Shown here: positions 5,590 through 63,011 of the stretch, in pieces
Layout of the letters: every line of letters starts with the position of its first letter
Numbering within the stretch: position 1 is the first letter of the stretch
Assembly: GCF_000002985.6 (NCBI RefSeq)
Contig: NC_003283.11
Coordinates: 13,268,001-13,332,000, forward strand
Length of the DNA stretch: 64,000 nt
Direction of reading: 5' to 3'
Origin: Caenorhabditis elegans
Taxonomy: Eukaryota; Nematoda; Chromadorea; Rhabditida; Rhabditidae
Translations under genes and position numbers: made by a program
The notes under the pieces: generated by a model
Database searches by the model: none
What the model was told of the DNA's origin: nothing
What the model saw: the letters and a program-made list of their open reading frames with translations, nothing else

Positions 5590-8500
5590 CTAAGCATTCT
5601 CGTATTGTCGTATTATAGACATTAAAGATGGAGTTGCACTGCTGGAACATGTCTGTGGAGCTGAATTCATTGAATTCGATGATGGAAAGTAATCGTCAAG
5701 CTCAGCGGTTTGTTGAGCGGTTAATGGGGTACGTTGTCGTCCGGAACTTCGCTTGTACGGTTCCTGAAATTTTTAATAATGGTTTTAGGTCAAAGAGTAA
5801 TAGTTTTTAGAAAACATGATTACGTTCTGGACAAAATTCAGCACATGATCCTTTTCATGACCACTCATATTAAAAAACCATTCGAGGCGGGTTCTTATTT
5901 CCCGTACTTATTCAGATACGATCACAATTGAAAACCACTAAAACTCTTTAAATTGCAGAGTTTTTGCAAGACATTATTCCAAAGACTACATCCCTTTAAC
6001 GTCGAGCTTCAGTATCAAATGTTCTATTTTTTCTAATTCTATGTACTCTAACTTTAATGTACCGTGCTGTTAACATGGCATAGATTTTTCCGTTGATTCG
6101 TTTACAAAAAATATCAGAAAATACTTGCACATTACAAAAAAGGGGAGCTAAACACATTTTAAAATTATCCGGTTATAACTGTGAACACATCAGTTTTCAT
6201 TAATATTTCGTGTTTTTCAATAAAACAATCAAAAAGTTAGTACGTGTTCAAAAATATTCGGCGTAGCAGTCATTTGTATAGAGTAATCCATCAAGTCTCT
6301 TGAAAATCTTGTAAAAAAAAACAAACCTCTCCGTGAATTATAATCTCATGATCAGTTAGAGAGAATCTACCAACACTGGGACGCAATACATCAGCAGCTT
6401 CTGGTTCCTGATTCACTTGATATTTTCTTGATCGCTTTTTCAGTTGGTCTACTTTTGAATATCGTCTTTCAATGCTTCTGTAAAAATGTCATAAATCCCT
6501 GAATGTACAGTTTCAAAAAGAATCCTTACGGTTTCAAAGAAATAGGTTCAGCCTCATATTCATCAAGTCGAGTCAAAGATTTCGATCGTAAACGTGTATT
6601 CTGAAAGATTAGTCATTTTTGTTAATCCTCTCTAATTCCAATTCTTACTGCACATTCGGCTATTGACAGAGTTGCAGTTGCAGGTGTTGCAGCTACAGTT
6701 ATGGTAGTTACAGTACTCTGCGGTGCCTCCGATCTAAGGCGTTGGCTGCGGTTCGACGTAACTGTTGGCTGCAAAAATAATTTCTCTGATAGTGCATGAG
6801 CAAAAAGTCATTATAGGGACTTTACACTTCATCGTTTATTGATGAGTTTCGTCATCGTTAAAATGTGTTTCCTGTTGTTTTATCATTTTTGTCAAACCAT
6901 ATTACCTATCACATTATATTTAAAATCAGAGAAAACCACGAATTGTGGGTTGGTGGAAATTCCAATTTCATTATTCGCATGGTTACGGTATCTACTTGTC
7001 CCTTTATGCTTTATTCTATTAGTATGACATGCAATTTGAGCTCAATATATTGCCACGCTAATTTTCAATTAAATATTTGGAATGTGAGAACACTTTTTAT
7101 AATCCTTTTTATAGTAGAATCCGAAAAAAATTTTCCCATTAAATTATTACCTTTGTAGAATCCCCAAACGACACTAACTCTTCGTATAACTGATCAAATG
7201 TCCGATCAATTTCTTCTTCCCCCATGCGACGACTGGATGTGGATCGTGACTGAAAATCAATGATATTTCATATTGATTCGTTTTCTTTTCTAAATACCTC
7301 CTGATTATGACGAGGCGGTAGTCGACGATTTCTTGCCTGTTGGTACCTGCTCCTCGAAGACATTACTGCTGCAGAGTTCGGTTCAGTGATATGAACCTGA
7401 ATATGAAAATGTGTGATAAAAGGGCAATATGAATTTTTGTACAAAACTCATGTAGTCTGGTAGGGATGCTCTACATTTTACGATAAAATTTTTTTGAGTG
7501 AAACGGAAAGGGCTCTCGGAAAATGTTAGATTTGTTGGAAATTAAAAAAAAAAAGTTATGCAGGATACCTGATTGAGATCAATAGTTGCAGCTGATTGCG
7601 TTCGACATACTGGAGGTCGGCAGTAGTTAGGATCAGTTGATTGGGTTGGATGAGATTGTTGATAGGTTAGAGATGGATGTGATATCTATATTAGTTAAAA
7701 TAAAATATTAAATTTTTTTGAAAAGAAAACTGAATAAGTGAGTTAAAAAGGTATAATAGGAGCAACTAATGACCGGAGAAAGCATCCAGTTAGTTCAACT
7801 TTTCACATTCTGATTTTATTTTTGTTTGGAAATTAAAGTAGAAATTTCACAGATATAAATTTTAAGTAACACTTACAATTGATTTTGATGTTGTCGGATT
7901 TGCTCCATTATAAATGCCTCCATTCATGTGACACGTGCACTTTTGTTCTTCTTTAATTGGCTCCGAAATTGAAGTTTTGCTGCCTCCAAGTAACCTGGAT
8001 GCTGATAAACTTCTTCTTCTATTGCTCTCTTCTTTTGCATCAACAGACTTTCTTCGTTTTTCCAGATATTTTGGAACTTTTTTGTGATTCTTCATCGATA
8101 CCTCAGCGAATTCTGGTCTTCCAAATGGAACAATTCTTGTGTTATCTATACTTAACATCAATTGCTTCGTTTTCTCAGGAATCTCTACGGAATAATGATC
8201 TAACATCATTCGTTTCAATTCTTGCATCCAAGTTCTTTTCTGCTCCATTGAAGACGCCATGAAAACATATTGGGCACGTGGATTGTCAAATGATAAGACT
8301 TGGAAACTTAGTGGTTCTTCTGGGCAAATCCATTCATTCAACATTAAATTCGAACACTGAAATTATATATTTTATAAATTAGTCAAGACGTTTAAGACGA
8401 TTACCATAATATAGTCCTTGCAAACATAGTTCGCCCCACGTTGCTTTACAATTAACAACATTTCCTCAAACAGGAACAATAGGCGTGTTGTCTTGGAACC

Positions 8501-29519: not shown

Positions 29520-30050
29520 ATGAATTTTGGTGAAAGTTATTGCTCATTTCACTGTTCTTGGTGTCAGCCATTGCTGGATTCACTCTCAAAAGAAAGTTGT
29601 TGGTATCTCAATTTTCAATCTGTGGATGAGTCTGTAAGTTTTATTCAGGAAATATTCAAATGTAATTATCAACTTACAGCAATTCTACGACGAAACGTAC
29701 TTTGCATCTCCAAAAAATAAAACTCCGAGGGTTTCTGTAAGTTTAAACGTTTGAATTACGTTTTGAACATTCTGGAATTTCAGGGAAAACTTAAAGAGAA
29801 GCTTCTTCAGTTTGTCAAGACTCCTGAAGATTTGGATCGTCCCCGCAAAAGAGCCATCATACATATTTGTAGGAGAATTAAAAAAATAACCGGACAAGAC
29901 ATTGATCCAGAATACATCAGCAAATTGTTGTATGGATTGAAAAGAGCAAGACGTGACAAGTTTCGAAAGATTAATCGAGAAATTTTTCGTGGGCTGAACT
30001 GGGATTTCACTCAATTTGAAAAATGCACTTTTAAGTGTGTGCTTAATTAG
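29520..30050 (+). CDS. Small basic protein, possible divergent DNA-binding (homeodomain-like) fold
   Basis: Three exons: 29520-29633, 29680-29736, 29784-30050, all phase 0 with GTAAGT donors and TTACAG/TTTCAG acceptors, giving 145 aa. The N-terminus is Cys-rich (FHCSWC, then a third Cys about residue 27). The C-terminal 88 residues are strongly basic. They suggest three helices: KLKEKLLQFVK, RAIIHICRRIKK and YISKLLYGLKRARRDKFRK. The spacing and the basic last helix are reminiscent of a homeodomain, but the Trp48-Phe49-x-Asn51 core is absent, so this is inference only. It lies in the same orientation and 3.8 kb upstream of the homeodomain-like cluster and may be a far-diverged member. No family was recognised with confidence. 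Confidence 0.65.
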
Positions 30051-33848: not shown

Positions 33849-35405
33849 ATGGTTCCCGTTGTTTTTCCGACCTTTCTTCCTGGCGCTGGCTCAGATCCGA
33901 ACATTCTGGAGTTGTGTGTAAGCACATTAATTAATTCGTCCACAATTACAACATTTATAATTTTTCAGAAGAATATGCTTTTTGCCAGTCGTCACAAAGA
34001 GTGTACAACTGCCTCGGAGCTTCTTCATAAAGTCGTGGCACTTAAATGCATTCAGAATCACCACACAATGAGGTACATTTACATAAACTTTTTTGCCTAT
34101 AGAAACGCAATTAGCAACACAATGCAAACGTTATAAAACAAAGTGATTTGACAAGAAAATGAAAAGTCGATCAAAAATAATCGGGAATGTCATGTGACAT
34201 GTTCAACTCGAACTGTTCTATATATTAAACTGTTTTTGTTAGATTCTGGTGTTTAAGTTGATTTTTTTTATAGAAAATATGTCAGATAGAGAAAGGAAAA
34301 TAACAAAATGTACAACAAATAAACAAATTTGATAACTAAAAAATTCAATGAAATTGACCATAGAACCTGTAATAAGGCGTTAGTCATTTTTATTTCGAGG
34401 GCGTAAATCACTATCGGAAATTTGGAAAAAATTATCAAAACTGACTTTTTTGCTTTGTTGCTTTGTTCTTAATGGAAATTTACAAAGAAAGTGGTCTAGA
34501 TCAAATTTAAGGGCAGGTAAACATTTTGAACTAGAAAATTGATCTAAATGTTTCTAGTATTTTTAAGACCCGTATGACCCAAATATAGATTTTTCAGAGT
34601 TATCCTTTAACGATTTTAAGAATTTCTAGGTGTTGGAAAAAATTCTGGAAGACATTTAGAAGTTGCTATATAATTTTTTTGTATTAAAAAATCAAACATT
34701 TCTGATTTTTTGAAAACATGAAGTGTGCTCAAACACTTTCCTTGCTATGTATTTTATAAACTCAAGGACTATCATTTGTTTCAGCGTCCCAAGCACAAGT
34801 CACCCGGCATCTTCAACTCCATCGCTGGCAACAGCATCTCAGAATTTTTCCTCACACTTACCTGCTTCATATTCAGCAGATCTTTTCGAAAATATTGAGA
34901 ACAATGAGCATAAAGCAATTTCTGGAGCTCCGATATTTTTTAATTCGATCACTGCGGTGCTCAAAAACCTTGCAAAAGCTGGTGTAGATCCGATTGTCGC
35001 TGAAAATATTGCCCTGGACCGACTATACTCACAAGATGCGAATCCTCTCTGCGATTTTTCGCATCCAATGTTCAATGGAGAACAGAGAGATATAGTTGTA
35101 AAGGATATTTTGAGAAAACTTCATGTGAGTTTGAAAATGTTTTGTAAATGCAAAATTGGTTTTAGGATCACGAAAATTTCACGATTGATGGAGCACCGTA
35201 TCCATTTGACATCAAATCTGCACTTCGTTATTCAGAGCATCTTCATTCTCAGATCCCTCCATTAGAAGTATGTTTCTAAAAATATTAATCAGTCAAAACA
35301 TGTGAATACTTTCAGACCATCAGCCCACAGCATCTTGCACACGAACAGTCAATTACCCTTGCAGCATTGGCAAGGTTTATGGCGATGCGTGAAATGGCTA
35401 GTTAA
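33849..35405 (+). CDS. N-terminal half or separate gene of the homeodomain-like cluster
   Basis: Five exons: 33849-33917, 33969-34072, 34785-35124, 35166-35267, 35316-35405, giving 234 aa. A candidate trans-splice acceptor TTTTTTGCAG ends near 33791. There is a Ser/Pro/Thr-rich linker (about 58-85) and then mainly helical sequence with no domain I can name. The frame closes at TAA 35403-35405. Only 37 nt later comes an acceptor TATCAGTTTCAG and, 19 nt beyond it, the ATG of the next homeodomain-like ORF. The last exon (LAHEQSITLAALARF) resembles a stretch of the paralogous 37-39 kb gene (GLANHAEADQLVLAIYVTS), where the protein continues. This ORF and the next may therefore once have been, or still be, one gene. 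Confidence 0.65.
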
Positions 35406-35460
35406 GATATACAACTTTTAATTTAATTTGTATCAGTTTCAGAACTTATACTTAATCGCA

Positions 35461-36523
35461 ATGTTTTCATTGGAAAATAATAATATCGAAGAACGCGTCT
35501 ATCATTCGGCATTATTCTGGACATACCGTGAAGCATTCAAATCGTTCTACTATCCGAAAATGCCCGCTCCAATTCCTCCACAATTTCAGTTGACGGTAAG
35601 ATTTGAATTATAATTTTAAAACTCAAACAAAAATTTTAGCCATCAGAACGACAAATTCTCCGTCGTTATTGGAACGCAGGAAATCGACATGTAACTACAA
35701 CAGAATGCATTTTTCTAGCAAGAAGATGCCCGAGCTTGGCGCCATTCCAAGTGTACGGGTTTTTTGATAAGCGTCGTAGAAGAGAATATAATAAATATCG
35801 GTAAGTACTATCTATGTTTCTGTCAAATTTTCAATTTATTAATTTGTTTCAGTGGCTTGAAAGACGATGAAACTTTGGCTCTGGAGACCACTCAAGTCTG
35901 GAAAAAGCTGAGAGAGCTGAAAGGAGGCATTGATGATGATGAGAGTGATGAGGACGATGAGTTGTTAATTCAGAGAGAATTTCTTTCGGTATTATAAAAC
36001 AGAAAAACGTTCAGTTTATTAAAGAGTATTTCAGAAAGATGATAATAAGAAACTGGAACTCTTGTGGCAAGTTGGCCATCGAAAGCCGAGTCGTAACGAG
36101 TGTGAGATTCTTGCTGCTGAAATGCAAATGGACAATGGAGAGCAGGTAAGGAATTGAGGACTCGAGGGAGACAACAGAGAATTCAGGTTTTGATTTTGAA
36201 TACTTGTAACAGTCCGAAATGTTCAAGACAAAAATTTCAAGAATATGCTTTGAATAAACCAACTTTCTCATGTTATTCTTGTCAAAATTTAGCATGTTAA
36301 CCTATTTCGAATATTTTCAAGCTACTCAAGTTTCAAGTATACAAATCATTATCAATTCCGGTAGCAAATTTCACAAGTTTTCTCAATCCATTGTTCTGAA
36401 ACTCTCAATATTGACCTCCGTTTTTTTAAATCATCGTCTTTCCAGATATTTGCTTACTTCGAAGACCGCCGTTGGCATGACGAATATCAAAACCGAAAGC
36501 GATCATGCTCCTCAAGAAGATAA
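35461..36523 (+). CDS. Protein with two divergent homeodomains lacking Asn51
   Basis: Exons 35461-35595, 35640-35800, 35853-35988, 36035-36145, 36446-36523 give 206 aa. Homeodomain-like unit 1 is about residues 46-99, ending QVYGFFDKRRRREYNK. Unit 2 is about 144-200, ending QIFAYFEDRRWHDEYQ. Both keep the helix-3 pattern Q/V-x-x-F/Y-F-x-x-R-R, so the fold assignment looks sound. Position 51, almost always Asn in homeodomains and the key adenine contact, is Lys in unit 1 and Asp in unit 2. An acidic linker (DDDESDEDDE) separates them. Expected to be nuclear; DNA binding may be altered or lost. It is either downstream in a tight two-gene arrangement or the C-terminal half of the preceding ORF. 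I cannot assign a ceh number. Confidence 0.75.
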
Positions 36524-37167
36524 TAACTTCCGCCGAATTTCCATATACTCTTTTCATTGTTTATTACATTGGCAATAACATTTCACCCCCGAACTGTGTT
36601 CACTGGACACATATCTTTAACTTTTCCGATGTGTACATCACCTTTTTAATGATCTTCACCTTCTTCTTGCTTTCCCCCGTTTTTTTAAGAAATGTAGTAC
36701 GTTGATTTTTATAGAACTAGAAGGCTTGATGCTTTTTTTTAACTCCGTGAATGGGAATTAAATTAAAATAAAGTTCTTGATTGTGAGTTTCGAAATGAAG
36801 AGAATGGCTGCTGCTATCAAAAATTCATTCATTATCAGTTTAAGTTACAGAGTGCACCTTTGTGTTATCAGTTTCTTGTTGCCTTCTGAGTTTGAAAAAC
36901 CATTCCCATGTGTGCCACTTTCGATTCTCTAGCGAAAAACTAACTGCCTTTAGGAATTTTTTTATAATTTTGAACGTTTTGAAGTTTTTAAAATTTTTTC
37001 TAGAAAGTTAAGCTTTTTCCAATTAATTAGCTACGTTCTTCTACAAATGCTTCTACAAAAGCTACAAATTCTTTGATCGATCAGCTGCTGAGAAACAATA
37101 ATCTTTATAATTATATTCGATAATAACAATTTTACAGTTCTGACAACTAATAAGTTAATTTCTAAAA
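36524..37167. other. Intergenic, no gene seen
   Basis: AT-rich spacer between two homeodomain-like genes. A short ORF (36505-36705) is the out-of-frame 3' end of the preceding gene. Confidence 0.4.
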
Positions 37168-39204
37168 ATGGAAGTACACGACGGTGCTTCCACATCAGAA
37201 TCAACTAGACACGAAGATCCTAACAGCACTGGAAGAGAAGAGTTTGATTTTTTCAAATAAATTATTGATTTTAATAGTTTATTTTTAGAACATCTATTCA
37301 AATTACACCTTCAAATGATATTTGGAACAAAGTTCGTTATAGTCATGTGCCAACTGCCATGAGATTACGAAGCTTGCTACTGTTCATTTCATCTTCATTT
37401 ATCAGTTTCATCGAAGCAATATCTGAAGTAAAAACTGTGAAAATTACACCTGCGGTGAGTTTGCCGAATGTGAAAACTTCATGTGAGCAAACGGTTATGT
37501 TTCAGGAAATTATCACAAGAATTGTCACGAGTTTTATCAATGGAAGTGTAGAGCAACCTCAAAGTTTTGTGAGTTTTTCTTCTTTCGTGAGTTACCTTCA
37601 CACAAATTACATTAAAGATTACGTCACTGGAAACAAGACAATTGAAAAATCTTGTTTATTTTCAAGTTCTAACGTTATTTTTTCTTTCAGAGCCACGAGA
37701 CGTTTCTGGACATTTTAATTGAAAAAATTCCAAATTCCGATGAGGTGATAAAAATCATTCTGAAGATTAAAAAACAGTCTCAATTACAGAAAGGAATGCA
37801 CTATCACGAAGTTTATCTTGCAATTTCCCCCATGGTTAATAATGTTAATTGGACAAGAATAAAGTTTGATAGAAGAGATGCAATGATGTGCTATAATAGT
37901 TTAACAAATATTCTACAAGTCTGTTTTGTGAGTTTTTGATTTTTTTAATTCTAGTGCAGTTAGTTCGGTCATAAGAAACTTTTGGTGAAACAGTTCAATC
38001 GATGACTTAATCAAATTGCACATACAAATTTTAGCGCAGTTAATAAATTAGGAGCACTCTAAAAATAATGCTTGATAGTGAATCAACCAATACTAAGCTA
38101 AGGTTTCAAGCAGAAATAGATTCACTTATTTTTTTGCAATGAAGTAATTTTCAGGAGCGAATCGGCCTTGCAAATCATGCAGAAGCTGATCAATTAGTTC
38201 TAGCAATTTACGTGACAAGTGTCTGGTGTTCCATTTTAAAGCAACGCCCTGAGCTGTCCCATCCTATACCAGACCAATGTGATTTTGAGTCTTACATGAA
38301 AACTTGGATTTTCCATCCTCATTTCGAAAACTTCTCCAAGGTGTTCGTAGCGTCATGTTGTCAAATTATGGAGTCGTCAGAGCACATGAAGACTACATGT
38401 TCCAAAGTTGAAACCCAAACACCTGAAACAGATCACCATGAAACACCAAAACCTTCATCTCTTCCAGCTTCACTACCAGAAGTTCAAGACACAATACCTG
38501 CAGAGCCTGCACCATCACTACAAATTCATCCATCTTGGAGAGCATCACCACATTTTAATCCATATATGGGATGTATGAATACTGTTCCTTTTGTCCCGTT
38601 GAATACACATGGGTTTTCATCTCATTCTGAGCACCATCAGAACTATCCACCTATGTTCCATTATTCTCCAGTTACACCTATACCCACTGCTCCGTCTGCA
38701 GAATTACCATCAACTACAAGAGCTCCAAAAAGAAAGCAATCAAAACAACAAAAACTGCCGAGCATTCACGAATTGGTAATAACTGGATTACATTACACCG
38801 TCATAAATAAAAATTTCAGACTGGTACTCTATGTAAGCCGAGTAACAAAAAGGGACCTAGACCAGGTACCAAATACAGGCAGCGAATAACGGTTTACACG
38901 ACGCCGTCTCGCAAGACATTTAAATCATATTTTGTTTGATTTTCAGGAACAGGAGTCAATAATACTACAGATCGAAGCCGAGAAAATAGCGATGAAACCA
39001 CAGGAGAGATATTCGAAACGAAAAATTAGTGAACGAACTAATATATCGTTGTATCAGGTTGAACTAAACACTATGAGAGAATATATTTGTTTCTATTTTC
39101 AGGTAAAAAGCTTTTTTAATCGCATAACAGCTGAACAAAGAAGACAACGATTGAACAATCCAGAAAAGCGCAGCAAAAATCGAAGAAAACTCCAATCCGT
39201 CTAA
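37168..39204 (+). CDS. Divergent homeodomain protein (single C-terminal homeodomain)
   Basis: Eight exons: 37168-37241, 37289-37454, 37506-37568, 37691-37927, 38155-38775, 38820-38891, 38947-39057, 39103-39204, giving 481 aa with consistent phases. Residues about 1-235 are helical and unrecognised. About 240-385 is Pro/His/Ser/Thr-rich and disordered. A basic stretch (PKRKQSKQQK) precedes the C-terminal homeodomain-like region (about 405-465), which ends QVKSFFNRITAEQRRQR. Aligning QVK with positions 44-46 puts Phe at 48 and 49, Asn at 50 and Arg at 51, so the canonical Asn51 is displaced. An intron splits the recognition helix between Gln44 and Val45. The 38820-38891 exon ends at ACG/GTTTAC, a weak donor chosen because it alone keeps phase and removes an in-frame TGA. 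Confidence 0.75.
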
Positions 39205-39589
39205 TTCATAATTTTTTACATTATCGGTATAATCTTCCAATTGAAAACTTGTAAATTTAACATGGAATGGGATAAACTCAACTTTGTTTTTAATTATTAG
39301 TTCTCACATTGGCATTTTTCAAACGTTAGGAGGTACGACTAGTTAGAGATTTTTTTGAATTTGAGTTTATTTAACTAAAAGAAGAGAAATAAACAAATAA
39401 AACGATCCGAATCCTAAAAGAGTTCAACTCGAGTAAAAGTTACAAAAAAAGATAATAGGGAACAGGTGAAACGGGGAGAAAGACGAAAACGGAGGTTAAA
39501 GTGTAGTTATAACCGGGGAATGTTGAGATCAATCAATTCACAGAACTGATATGGGGACATAAAAACCGTAACATTTTTGAACAATTGTT
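39205..39589. other. Intergenic, no gene seen
   Basis: 3' flank of the homeodomain-like gene, running into the LINE fragment. AATAAA motifs near 39390-39400 lie too far from the stop to assign with confidence. Confidence 0.35.
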
Positions 39590-40190
39590 TCAGACTGAGA
39601 TGATATGAGCAAAGAAATGCGTGGAGCATTTGTCCTTCCTAACTAAAATCATTGGGAGCCTATTTGAACTAGAGAAAGTAACAAATTGTCTAAGGTTAGA
39701 AAAATGAGAGGTACCTGTTAACAGTCTATACAGTAGTTTCAATTGAGCTTTAATTCTATCGTGTCTGGTGGAGTGGAGCTCCATTATACTGAGTCGATTT
39801 TCATAACAGGAGAATTTTGTATTGTATCTTTGAAGAACGCGCTTGTTAAGTGCCTCAGAGGTTGTTCAAGTTTTGCTGAAAGCAATGAGTTTGGGGAGGG
39901 AGCATAGACTTCAGAGCAGTAATTCATAATGGGAGCAACATAAGTTTTATAAAGGTGGGCGTAGAACTTTGGGGAATTGGAGGAGAATGCTTTGGTGTTT
40001 CCAGACCAACTAGTGCTCTCAATAAAAGCCTTGAAGATAAAATGAGAGAACAGAAGTGCGTATGTAAAACCTCTCGTCGGGTAACACATGTCTTTGAATC
40101 CTCTCTAATCTTTGATTTAGTGACTAAGCGAAGCGATACGCGGATCCTAACACTACACAAATGGAACACTTTTCAGGTGCTTCAGAATAC
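39590..40190 (-). mobile_element. Decayed non-LTR retrotransposon (LINE) fragment, reverse transcriptase C-terminus
   Basis: On the minus strand, conceptual translation of 39784-40089 gives AHLYKTYVAPIMNYCSEVYAP followed by SLLSAKLEQPLRHLTSAFF. This matches the pattern at the end of LINE reverse transcriptases (YKTYVRPILEYCSPVWSP, then an E-x-VQR-x-FT segment). After a stop and frame change at 39784, 39590-39784 continues with LHSTRHDRIKAQLKLLYRLLTG, the usual R-x-x-x-DLxxxYKIL-x-G ending. Stops and frame changes show it is dead. It lies antisense between two homeodomain-like genes. Confidence 0.7.
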
Positions 40191-40282
40191 TCGGCAGATT
40201 ATTGGGCTGTGGCAAAACTGGAGTTGAATTGAAAATGAAATACGAAGAATGTTTCAGGCTTCAAAAAAGAAAAATCCCCACC

Positions 40283-41423
40283 ATGTCACGCCATCATGTA
40301 ACTAAAGAAGGAGAGAAAAATGGCGAAACACTGTTCACTCCCGAACAGTTGCAACTGCTGAGAAGAGGTTTTGCGCCTTTATACCTTCAAGAAGCCTACA
40401 AAAATCAAGAGAAAGAGAGAAATTGGAGGAAAGAGATCGGAGGATATAAAATGAAACGACAACGGCTTCCAGCCATTACAGTTAGTCTTTTTTTTGGGGG
40501 GAAAAATTTGTAAAAAAATTTTCCCGTGGTGGAGAGTTGAACTCATATGCTCATTGAAAAAGTGCATTGAAAAAATTATTTTTTCTCGTACTATCTTTTA
40601 TTTAAAAACGTAGTTCATCATTAGCCTAATGCATTAGAGACTTTGTATGTAGTGGAAATTGTGATTTTGTGGGAGCTACCGTAGCTTTGGAAAGAAAACA
40701 AACTCTACCTTAGAGCCTTTAGTTCAGTGATATCCTCTTCTGAAACTGACAATTGTTTATGTTTAAGAATGTTTGTACGTAAGTTCTCAAACAGTTTGAC
40801 TTAATTTAAAATAGTGACCAAAATTTATAATAACCGATAGTTTCAGTGCACTCTATCACTGAACTACAACCTCTATGATTGTCAGTTATTATTAAGTTAC
40901 AGAAGTTCGAGTTTTAAAGCAAATACCATTCCAGGGTCGACAGAAAGCTATGCTTCTGCAAGTTATGGACCGTACGAAATGGCCACAAGGCTCAGTCGAT
41001 CGGCAGAAAGTTGCCGATAAGGTAAATTTGGCATACCATCAGGTAGACTATAGTTGGATCTTGAACTATTTCATTTCTGTTTTTCAGATAACACATCAAT
41101 ACCGTGTTCACCCAGAAAACCAGATGTACATGCAAAACAGCAAACGGCAGACTAGAGAGAAGATTACTGTAAGTTACTAATCGGTTTTAATTCTTGAAAT
41201 AAAATAGGAATCGTGTATTCTTTTTAGTCTGAGCAGAAGTTCCAACTTGAGAAAGCTTTGCTGGAAAATCCCAAGCCACTAATGGGAAGTGTGGACCGAG
41301 AACATTTTCGTCGAGAGAAATGCCCAACTGTTCGCCGCGACCAGGTAAAGCAGAAATATAACTTTAATTTTCTGAAAATTACTTTATACATTTCAGTTTG
41401 AACACTTTCTCAAGAGAAATTAA
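40283..41423 (+). CDS. Small protein with tandem degenerate homeodomain-like units
   Basis: Five exons: 40283-40480, 40935-41042, 41088-41168, 41228-41344, 41397-41423, all phase 0, giving 176 aa. A trans-splice-like acceptor (GAATGTTTCAG) ends about 26 nt before the ATG. Two related units are visible. Unit 1 (about 60-125) has KRQRLPAITGRQKAMLLQVM, GSVDRQKVADKVNL and YHQITHQYRV. Unit 2 (about 120-176) has KRQTREKITSEQKFQLEKAL, GSVDREHFRR and ends RRDQFEHFLKRN. The R-x-R-x-x-IT start and Q-x-x-x-x/F-x end match a homeodomain skeleton, but the W-F-x-N-R-R recognition core is missing and unit 2 stops where helix 3 should continue. A TPEQLQLLRRGF segment at the N-terminus may be a third. The role is unknown; loss of DNA binding is likely. 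Confidence 0.65.
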
Positions 41424-45597: not shown

Positions 45598-47487
45598 ATG
45601 GTGGAAGGCGATGTCGACGAATCGGCGTCCGGGACGTCGGGAACCAACAAGAAAATTTTGTTCACAAAAAAGTATGTTGTTAAAATATATATTCTTGATT
45701 AAAAAATTAATTAAAATTTTTAGACCCTCGGTATGGAAAGATTTTGATAATTGGATAAATGACGAGCCAGAAAATCGATACGACTTATTTCAAGTGGTAA
45801 AATCTGCAATGCTTCTTCAATCAGGATATACAACTATTTTGATGGATCAAGTAACTGATAATGGAGCTGATGAATTGAGAATATCTGTGAGTTGTTAATG
45901 TCTTTGTAGCTTAATTTCAACTAATTATTTTCAGCTAGAATATTCCAATTTCATAAAAATTGTCAATAGCACGAAATTGGTAGTAGGCAAAGAACAATGT
46001 CCACCTTCAAATGTTTTCACCCTGCTTGCGGAAATATTTGCAAATACACCCGGAAATACTTCGGAAGTCGGGCGAATCAGTACTTGGTTGACCAGCCATC
46101 TTGGAGCTCTATTGCATAATGATGTAATCTGGAAGATCCATTTTTTCGATCCCGATCTTTTTCGCTCTGTATACTGGCAGTTGATATTTACATTGAAGTT
46201 AGCTCCAGGCGATACGGAAAATCTGGAAGAAGACGAAAATTATGCAAAGCTATTGTTCTCCTGTTTTATCACTGCCGTTATGGTTGCACTTTGGCATGAT
46301 CACGAGATGTCGTTCAATTCAATATGTCCTGACTATCTAAAACCTGAAACTGCTTCTGAATATATGGTGATGTTAATTTCGTCGCCTCCATTTAGGAGTC
46401 TATCACAATTTTTCCTTTTTGGACTTCATCTTCTTGGAAAGTATCAGTCGGAAGGCGGTTGTGTAGTGGTTCGGGAAGAAGCATATATTGCAGAAATCAG
46501 ACAAAATGACGAAGAAAAGGTAAGAATTTTAAAAATTAAATAGTTAAAATTTCAATCCTTCACAGAAAGGTTTCTTCTGGAATATAGTTACATATCTTAA
46601 TAGTTTCAGAGACAAAGTATTGAAACTCGGACTAACTTGATTTCCGATGACATGGTTTATGACGACGGAGAAGATCTATTGGAACAAATCGATCGAGTTC
46701 AGCAGTTACATGAAGCACATTGTATTGTTCTGTTGAAAAAGGGGTTTCTCAAAGCTCCCGATGGCTTCAAAATAGTTCAAAAAGGTGGCCGACCAAGAAA
46801 ATATCCTGCAAGTGCTACTAAAAAGCGAAAGGTTGATGGAGCAACAATATCGGGTGAAGTAGAGGATAGACAACCGCATCAAAGCCCTCGTCTTCAGAAG
46901 AAAACACCGAGATCGTCGCCAAAGAAAAAAATGAGCAAGGAATCTCCGATAAACCATCAGAAAGAGCCCATTGATGAGCAAAAACCTTCTACATCATTGC
47001 CCATTTATTCTGTTGCCACGCTGAAGCCACGTCGAAAAGTTGTCAAAACGGCGGACGAAGTTGGACTATGTGCACCAATTTTTGTAATGCAATCTGAACT
47101 TCTCAAAAAGTTCAGAGAAGAGGTTCAACGTCGGTATGCCGAAGGATCTAGTGCTAGTGACCAGGAAAGAGTTCGAAATATGGTTTATGAAGCATATGAC
47201 AATATATATCATATTAATCGACTCTCGGCAAATGAAGGGCCTCGGATCCTCACATCAGACCAGAAGTTGGTAATGCAGCAATATAAAACAACATTTCGCC
47301 AAGGTCCTACTTTTGCAGAAGAAACTGAAAGCGATGTAGAGGAAGAGGAGGAAAAGAAAGTTGTGGAAGTTGTGGTAAGTAAATATTTAAACATGGAATT
47401 TTTGAAATTATCTTTTTTTACTTTCAGACTGCAAAAGTGATCAAAGGCTCGGCGAAATCTTCAAAAAAGTTCAAACGTCGTTACTGA
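45598..47487 (+). CDS. AT-hook nuclear protein of unknown function
   Basis: Five exons: 45598-45671, 45724-45886, 45935-46519, 46610-47374, 47428-47487, giving 548 aa. A TTTCTCTAG acceptor lies just upstream of the ATG. Residues about 25-275 are a folded-looking, mainly helical region rich in Trp/Phe (KPSVWKDFDNWINDEPENRY, LALWHDHEMSFN-like) that I do not recognise. At about 325-335 is KGGRPRKYP, an AT-hook core (GRPRK), followed by a basic Ser/Pro-rich tract (SPRLQKKTPRSSPKKKMSKE). A further helical segment and a Glu-rich stretch precede a basic C-terminus (KSSKKFKRRY). Expected to be nuclear and to bind AT-rich DNA or chromatin. If memory serves it is C50B6.3, which has no named function. 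Confidence 0.85.
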
Positions 47488-61282: not shown

Positions 61283-63011
61283 TTATGAATCCATAACATC
61301 TTCAATTATTTGCACGATATTATCCTTTGGTGTTTTTGCAACAAGCGGTGCAATATATAATAGATGTAGATCTTTTTGCATTCTTTGCTGTCGTTCCAAA
61401 ACATCAATTATTCCAATTAAATCAGTGAAACGGCTTGGACCATTTCCAATGTTTCGAATACAATGATCGAGTAGAGCTTCAGAGTACTTCTGTCGTTCCT
61501 CGGCCAACAGAAGCTGTGCATGCTTGGAAAGATCAGGAACGGCTGAAACAATCAATAACTAGTCATACAAGTAATGGAAAATTGTTACCTGGATTGCATA
61601 GGCAAATAGCTTTTAGTAAGACATACTCAATTTGTTGAACTTGATACCGTATTAGTGGAATAATTGACATGACATTGCTTGAATAATATTCTTGACTGAA
61701 ATTCAGGTGGTATTAGAAGTTAGATTACTTCTGCCTTACTTCCTGTGCATTTGAAGGGTTCCATCTGGATGTACTGCAGTGTCATATTTTTTTGAAACGG
61801 ACGAAAATGAAACTAGTAGATTCACACATGCCAGTGTTGTATATCTGATCAGAATAAGTTGATCTCTTGGTAGAAGCTCATGGAAAAACATGAAAGTTTT
61901 GGCGTATTCTATTGTTGCAAGCATGTTAAAATAGAGCCAATGCTTTCTGAATTACTCGTTCTTAACTGTAAGTTTTTTCCCAATTTATGTGATGTGACTT
62001 ACTTTTTTGGAGAGTAAGGAGGTGGTCCACCTATAACTAATTTTTCGTGTGATAAAGGCGGAGGACGGGATGGGGACAGATTGTTATCGAGAAGAGGCCA
62101 TCCGGGCATTGGCTAAAAAATCATTTTTCAGACGAATATGCGCGACTTTAAATACCCCAAACTTGTCTGCCAAACTGATTCGATTTGTACTATTCAACAC
62201 AAATTCCAATCCGCGAACTTCGGCCCAATGTGGATTGTAAGAAGATGCTCGAAATTGATCCAACTTTAATTCAAGGTACGTCAACATGTCAGCGATTTTT
62301 TGAATTTTGTTTTCCATCGATTCCAAACTGTTCAAGACCAATTGCTTTTCATTTACAGCATCGTTGCCTATCATGTTTTTACGTTTGGTTACTTCTTTCA
62401 AACAATCTGTGTTCGTTTTATCTACTTCTAACGCGTGAGGATTCATCCCAACTGCAAAACATTTGTTGATTCGACATGCTCGACATTTAACAGGAACATC
62501 TGGAAACTGATTGATTTTCTAATAACTTCATTTCCTTGCAAACCTCTAGTTGATAAATCAAAACAATCATCATTAAGTTTGCAAGTGAACAATCGTTTTG
62601 AAATTACATATCTTCTAAAAAAAGTTTTACATCCATTACATGCAGGTACATCGTAATGATATCCGGACGCTGAGCCACCACAAACGAAGCAATCTTTTGG
62701 TCGTTCAGCATAAACTTTTAGTTGTGGAATGATCTGGAAAGCAACTGATTTGACTTTTAGATATTAATGGTGTCTCGAACATTTTTTTTTTGTCTCAGAA
62801 TCTGCCAGTTTTGGCAAATACTGCGAATTTACTTCATAATAATACTTGTCTTGTCAGGTATAATACTTGTCAGGTACTTGAGAAAATATAGTATTTAATC
62901 ACAAAAACTTGGTTCAACATTTCATTAGGATGCTTATGCTACAAAATTGCAGGTGTATGAAATTACCTCAGGAAGGTCAACAGGACTATTGGAACAACTA
63001 GGTTCGTCCAT
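61283..63011 (-). CDS. Nuclear hormone receptor (supplementary NHR family)
   Basis: Seven exons on minus: 62967-63011, 62544-62733, 62156-62499, 62003-62112, 61740-61946, 61589-61695, 61283-61542, giving 420 aa. The start MDEPSCSNSPVDLPE follows a TTTTTTGCAG acceptor. The DNA-binding domain has two C4 zinc fingers: CFVCGGSASGYHYDVPACNG with P-box CNGCKTFFRR, then CKLNDDC...CRACRINKCFAVGM. A hinge rich in Pro (PSRPPPL, GGPPPYSPK) leads to the ligand-binding domain with IEYAKTFMFFHELLPRDQLI and ending ERQQRMQKDLHLLYIAPLVA. CNGCKTFFRR is the P-box typical of the expanded nematode HNF4-like receptors. Role: ligand-dependent or orphan transcription factor in the nucleus; target unknown. Tandem paralogue of the next gene. 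Confidence 0.9.

Follow-up and report, generated by a model that had tools for sequence, protein, structure and literature searches.

A cluster of divergent homeodomain-like units lacking Asn51 on Caenorhabditis elegans chromosome V

Few homeodomain residues are as constrained as Asn51. Genes that have lost it while retaining homeodomain exons therefore offer a natural way of testing which roles, other than DNA reading, the fold can take on. In a 64,000-nucleotide stretch of C. elegans chromosome V (V:13268001-13332000, hereafter the window), three predicted plus-strand genes, AB, C and D, carry five homeodomain-like units (B1 and B2 in AB, one in C, and D1 and D2 in D), and Asn51 is absent from all of them. 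These gene models were drawn from splice sites and open frames. We consider it probable that AB, C and D, as lineage-specific and strongly diverged homeobox genes, form a small, eroded tandem family in which the constraint on the recognition helix has been relaxed rather than uniformly redirected, since each unit has different residues there.

Residue 51 is Lys in B1, Asp in B2, Arg in C, Val in D1 and Arg in D2. The W48-F49-x-N51-x-R53 pattern of helix 3 was not found, as both W48 and N51 are missing from every unit; what remains of the core is F49 in B1, B2 and C, and R53 in B1 and B2. D2 ends inside helix 3, with a stop after residue 52. An initial annotation of this DNA had described at least three neighbouring genes, each ending in a homeodomain with Lys, Asp or Arg in place of Asn51, as well as a fourth gene without the W-F-x-N core. 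The three replacements hold, and the motifs containing them are encoded on the plus strand, in exons that have an open frame and usable splice sites. They belong, however, to two gene models rather than three, which are the ones with an F/Y48-F49 core: the Lys and Asp units stand in tandem in AB, which has two units, and the Arg unit lies in C, which does end in its homeodomain. The fourth gene is our D, where the core is indeed absent (Q48-Y49-R50-V51 in D1 and F48-L49-K50-R51 in D2).

The register at residue 51 was set by profile, by the predicted structure of B1 and by intron positions. In a repeat match between B1 and B2 (hhalign, expectation value (E) 0.001, 48 gapless columns), the residue-51 positions K300 and D399 are aligned on each other. 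The model of gene D used here is a corrected one, obtained from the first exon model by moving one donor (now at 41043), a change prompted by a read-through homeodomain-profile match. A different register that would keep Asn51, a possibility that the initial annotation had raised, was considered for D1 by placing Y-M-Q-N of the first model at positions 48-51. It is not favoured by the gapless helix-3 score, and with exon 2 ending at Q44 in the corrected model, it no longer exists.

Introns, predicted fold and profile matches

For comparison, a profile (ceHD) was built from 54 homeodomains of the C. elegans genome, derived from 84 genomic hits at E 0.001, with the window units excluded. Its 54 members comprise the hits that run into helix 3 with no intervening stop, together with 24 of 44 splice joins chosen by eye; the other 20 joins (for example L040, L054, L057 and L065) were left out.

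A phase-0 intron follows homeodomain residue 9 in all five units, and another follows residue 44, a Gln, in four of them (B2, C, D1 and D2). The latter position is commonplace, occurring in 11 of the 24 splice-joined reference homeodomains (counting L106, which has a weak score). The former is unusual: 56 of the 84 genomic hits, all beginning no later than residue 6, continue across this point uninterrupted by the intron after residue 9 that the cluster has, and among the other 28, whose upstream DNA was judged by eye, a clear phase-0 acceptor at 9/10 was seen in one (L100). The recurrence of both introns points to common descent of the units, by which the five shared 9/10 sites are best explained, despite an identity to B1 of just 9-23% among the other units. 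In this register, C and D2 each require two additional loop residues. Such paired introns suggest a marker of homeobox descent once sequence similarity is nearly lost, and this marker could reveal more unlisted nematode homeobox genes. The 44/45 introns of C (39058-39102) and D1 (41043-41087) are each exactly 45 bases long and open in frame, so their retention would add 15 residues directly ahead of helix 3.

For B1, the sole single-exon unit, AlphaFold2 predicts the three-helix homeodomain fold (PF00046) with Lys at position 51 and a predicted local distance difference test score (pLDDT) of 91. Helix 3 is predicted to be long, and the predicted model matches homeodomains (Foldseek, VIA), with model residues 1-53 on homeodomain residues 10-60. 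Structure prediction, one of the checks that the initial annotation had proposed, agrees with it for this unit. The other four units are inferred to share the three-helix fold.

Against the Pfam Homeodomain profile, whose curated cut-off is 22.9 bits, the whole AB protein scores 25.0 bits across two stretches. Scored separately, its second half (B2) reaches 18.7 bits and its first half (B1) is not listed at E 1, so the cut-off is not reached by any AB unit scored singly. With ceHD, B1 scores 8.5 bits and B2 8.9, and the highest score among 500 AB shuffles is 7.6; the match of unit C, which covers helices 2-3, reaches 8.5 bits, and none of 500 shuffles of the gene C protein exceeds 7.0. The homeodomain origin put forward in the initial annotation is supported for AB and C by scores above those of shuffles, and for D only after the profile-prompted correction of its model, which as a whole protein scores 13.9 with ceHD when none of 2000 shuffles exceeds 12.4. 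B1, at 14.0, was the only unit clearly found by the gapless helix-3 score, for which shuffles reached 5.5 at most.

A six-frame ceHD scan covered 2098 frames in the window, 254 of them within the cluster. Before the correction of D, cluster frames made up three of the top four and four of the top five (binomial 0.006 and 0.001, respectively), and D1 was hit with 10.4 bits, corresponding to E 0.05 over the 2098 frames. The best six-frame hit lies on the minus strand (5593-5772), where a helix-1 fragment runs into low-complexity sequence, and was taken as chance. A genome-wide, exon-by-exon search with Pfam Homeodomain returned no window row among the matches listed, down to E 6.25. In a protein search of the genome at E 10, AB, C and D have no significant relatives elsewhere, the only matches of gene C beyond its own locus being weak (C3:859623, E 0.37; C1:5737210, E 0.56). 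Among PDB sequences searched up to E 10, unit C matches the TGIF2LX homeodomain alone (E 0.03); the PDB search with B1 returned nothing homeodomain-like.

Several results weigh against a single eroded family. The D1 donor was picked partly for its fit, and two reference positions, residue 9 in C and residue 44 in D2, were set by eye. An AlphaFold model of C with the intron translated has helices 2 and 3 fused (pLDDT 77, predicted template modelling score 0.42) and is uninformative on the spliced protein, and the fold of unit C could not be shown. Gene C matches no Pfam family at E 10, and corrected D reaches 16.3 bits with Pfam Homeodomain, under the cut-off. The gapless helix-3 score of C (0.8) is barely over the 95% shuffle level, that of B2 is under it and that of first-model D is about average. 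With ceHD, the best unit of first-model D scores 4.1 bits, compared with 6.1 in the best of 500 shuffles, and the best single unit of corrected D (6.3) is matched or exceeded in 5 of 2000 shuffles. The score of the corrected model is not a blind test, as its donor was chosen because it fitted; the case for D comes chiefly from its introns and from helix 1, and the profile match of D2 is to helix 1 only (4.0 bits). Pairwise hhalign and phmmer comparisons of AB, C, first-model D and a further neighbouring gene, E, revealed no N-terminal family link.

These Pfam and shuffle results for C and D would also fit a homeodomain match of D, and perhaps of C, that is due to chance, leaving AB as the only true homeodomain gene. 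We regard this as quite improbable, given that both phase-0 intron positions recur in B2, C, D1 and D2, a coincidence rarely expected by chance. Gene D can be assigned with moderate confidence to the same family as AB and C.

Loss of Asn51 and its interpretation

In the passages drawn on here, Asn51 is listed among the specificity-determining residues in a paper on LEUTX, and N51A is used as a homeodomain mutant in the DNA-binding work of a paper on Bicoid. Asn51 takes a direct part in base recognition, and canonical DNA recognition by units that lack it is unlikely.

Outside the window, 4 of the 54 reference homeodomains have Lys or Arg in place of Asn51 (K, K, K and R, the Arg of L106 coming from a weak join with a score of 14), in a set biased towards Asn51 because the splice search rewards a usual helix 3. 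A tandem homeodomain gene on chromosome II (12.586-12.602 Mb; L111-L115, C2:12586000-12602400), which we take to be ceh-100, has Lys or Arg51 in all four helices read from five short stretches (IREWFRKKR, VKSWYMRRR, VLKWFWKKR and VKDWFNRRR). The replacement is basic in all eight of these homeodomains. Asn51 loss recurs among divergent C. elegans homeodomains and so is not unique to the cluster. The acidic and hydrophobic replacements within the cluster, together with its loss of W48, exceed the losses seen outside the window.

The initial annotation had taken the retention of the fold pattern without Asn51 as a sign of selection for another function, with altered DNA recognition, protein binding or dominant-negative dimers as candidates. 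This does not follow from the sequences: the replacements (K/D/R/V/R) differ, D2 stops in helix 3 and the loss recurs elsewhere, which makes relaxed constraint an equally good first guess. One form of such selection would be neofunctionalisation, with Lys or Arg51 and a basic helix 3 providing a new, still sequence-specific code. The replacements read outside the window, each of them Lys or Arg, are consistent with it, as are the retained R52-R55 and the predicted long helix 3 of B1 and the Arg at position 5 of B2, C and D2 (counted by eye). However, Asp51-Glu50 in B2, Val51-Pro53 in D1 and the stop after residue 52 in D2 are misfits, and we consider a new code of this kind unlikely.

Somewhat less likely still is that the cluster is turning into pseudogenes whose homeodomains drift neutrally. 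The variation of residue 51 between units, the stop within helix 3 of D2 and the lack of significant relatives elsewhere in the genome would agree with decay. Decay, however, normally breaks some frames, and the models of AB, C and D are all open, over 1254 coding bases in nine exons, 1446 in eight and 579 in five (stop included), with usable splice sites. We infer that relaxed constraint, under which the units keep some structural or protein-contact role, is the most likely explanation, followed by altered DNA reading and then by outright decay.

Under relaxed constraint, a single ancestral homeobox, interrupted by phase-0 introns after residues 9 and 44, would have given rise to all five units, spreading through duplication inside and between neighbouring genes; the basis for this scenario is the placement of the introns, the weak matches to the profile and the fold predicted for one unit. 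Asn51 and most other base-reading positions, whose losses are read directly, would have been lost since, and canonical recognition via Asn51 would be gone. B1, which keeps Arg52-Arg55, might at most hold DNA or RNA through charge. Unit C and the acidic B2 would more likely be protein-contact modules of nuclear proteins, by analogy with HOPX, and D2, cut in helix 3, is probably not a functional DNA-binding domain.

Alternatively, AB, C and D may constitute an unlisted nematode family with a two-intron homeobox, the whole set having left Asn51 base reading for contact with proteins or, through basic Lys/Arg51, with nucleic acids, in parallel with the chromosome II gene. We put this forward tentatively; if true, it would indicate a recurrent route in C. 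elegans from DNA-reading to Asn51-less homeodomains.

Relation to known homeodomain systems

According to the text of Hench et al. 2015 (PMC4448998), C. elegans has 103 homeobox genes, 23 of which are divergent ('Div.'); 15 of these 23 (14 in the abstract) are without Caenorhabditis orthologues. Multi-homeodomain genes reach 12 units, and ceh-100 is described as having 12 homeodomains packed tightly (PMC4448998). Compared by that text, rather than by the gene list in its figures, AB, C and D are like the divergent orphan homeobox genes, which are often multi-homeodomain, sometimes clustered and fast evolving. AB is unlike them in that none of its units passes the Pfam cut-off alone. We read the cluster as belonging within this known class of divergent Caenorhabditis homeobox genes, not as a new system, and its genes add candidates to the fast-evolving regulators of C. 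elegans. Literature searches on divergent C. elegans homeobox genes and Asn51 listed no paper that we recognised as being about AB, C or D.

The chromosome II tandem gene shares with the cluster its tandem units, an intron after residue 44 (by eye) and the basic residue 51. It differs in retaining W48 with F or Y49 in four helices and in lacking the intron after residue 9 throughout the five stretches read, and it is not among the genome matches of AB, C or D.

The HOCHOB genes (ceh-91, ceh-92 and ceh-93) are Caenorhabditis-specific and, like AB, have a double homeodomain with a partly lost core, and the text of PMC4448998 gives them a linker of ~17 residues with two invariant Cys. AB does not fit this pattern, having instead an acidic linker of ~45 residues with no Cys. 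HOPX is described, in the parts of PMC6997107 drawn on, as a homeodomain without the residues for DNA binding that acts via partners such as SRF. It is a single small protein (73 residues in mouse, according to the text of PMC4901127), whereas AB, C and D are predicted multi-exon nematode proteins with further regions.

Gene models and neighbouring features

AB may be two genes, given that a short form, or else a distinct gene upstream, stops at 35405 in exon 35316-35405. An alternative start for its homeodomain half is the ATG at 35461, and the Lys and Asp units would remain together even if AB were split. Besides its two units, gene D has a possible helix-1 remnant at the N terminus. Coordinates are collected in Table 1.

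Table 1. Predicted genes, homeodomain-like units and neighbouring features, in window positions; slashes mark intron positions
Feature	Positions	Strand	Description	Junction 9/10	Junction 44/45
Gene AB	33849-36523	+	long model, 417 residues; splice sites, open frame; carries Lys and Asp motifs
AB exons 1-5	33849-33917, 33969-34072, 34785-35124, 35166-35267, 35443-35595	+
AB exons 6-9	35640-35800, 35853-35988, 36035-36145, 36446-36523	+
Gene C	37168-39204	+	481 residues; open spliced frame; Arg motif at its end
C exons 1-4	37168-37241, 37289-37454, 37506-37568, 37691-37927	+
C exons 5-8	38155-38775, 38820-38891, 38947-39057, 39103-39204	+
Gene D	40235-41423	+	corrected model, 192 residues; two tandem units
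D exons	40235-40480, 40935-41042, 41088-41168, 41228-41344, 41397-41423	+
Unit B1 (AB)	35640-35798	+	homeodomain residues 10-60, single exon; F48 F49 D50 K51 R52 R53	QLT/PSE
Unit B2 (AB)	36035-36500	+	exons 36035-36145 and 36446 on; Y48 F49 E50 D51 R52 R53	FLS/KDD	EQ/IFA
Unit C (C)	38947-39150	+	split after Q44; F48 F49 N50 R51 I52 T53	RIT/EQE	YQ/VKS
Unit D1 (D)	40935-41135	+	I8 T9 / G10 ... Q44 / I45 T46 H47 Q48 Y49 R50 V51 H52 P53	AIT/GRQ	HQ/ITH
Unit D2 (D)	41228-41423	+	I8 T9 / S10 ... Q44 / F45 E46 H47 F48 L49 K50 R51 N52 stop	KIT/SEQ	DQ/FEH
Gene E	45598-47487		548-residue model
Small basic gene model	29521-30050	+	~145 residues
Retrotransposon-like frames	39590-40104	-	by eye
Nuclear-receptor-type frame	62446-62763	-	by eye
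nasp-2-like gene	~42.3-44.4 kb	-	resembles nasp-2, which we presume to lie here
Amylase-like gene	~54.4-57 kb		resembles amylase C50B6.7, which we presume to lie here

Gene E was considered as a family member and set aside, as it has no homeodomain match, neither of the two introns and no significant match to C. Its model includes an AT-hook-like stretch, GGRPRKYP; searched in two parts, it matches no Pfam family over the cut-off, and its own locus is all that it matches in the genome at E 10. In the passages of papers that mention them, C50B6.2 is named nasp-2 and C50B6.7 is a predicted alpha-amylase.

The small basic gene model upstream of AB has no Pfam match at E 1. The minus-strand frames between C and D resemble the end of a reverse transcriptase of a non-long-terminal-repeat retrotransposon and match no Pfam family at E 1. 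Near the end of the window, a minus-strand frame carries a nuclear-receptor-type zinc finger pattern (CFVCGGSASGYHY..ACNGCKTFFRR).

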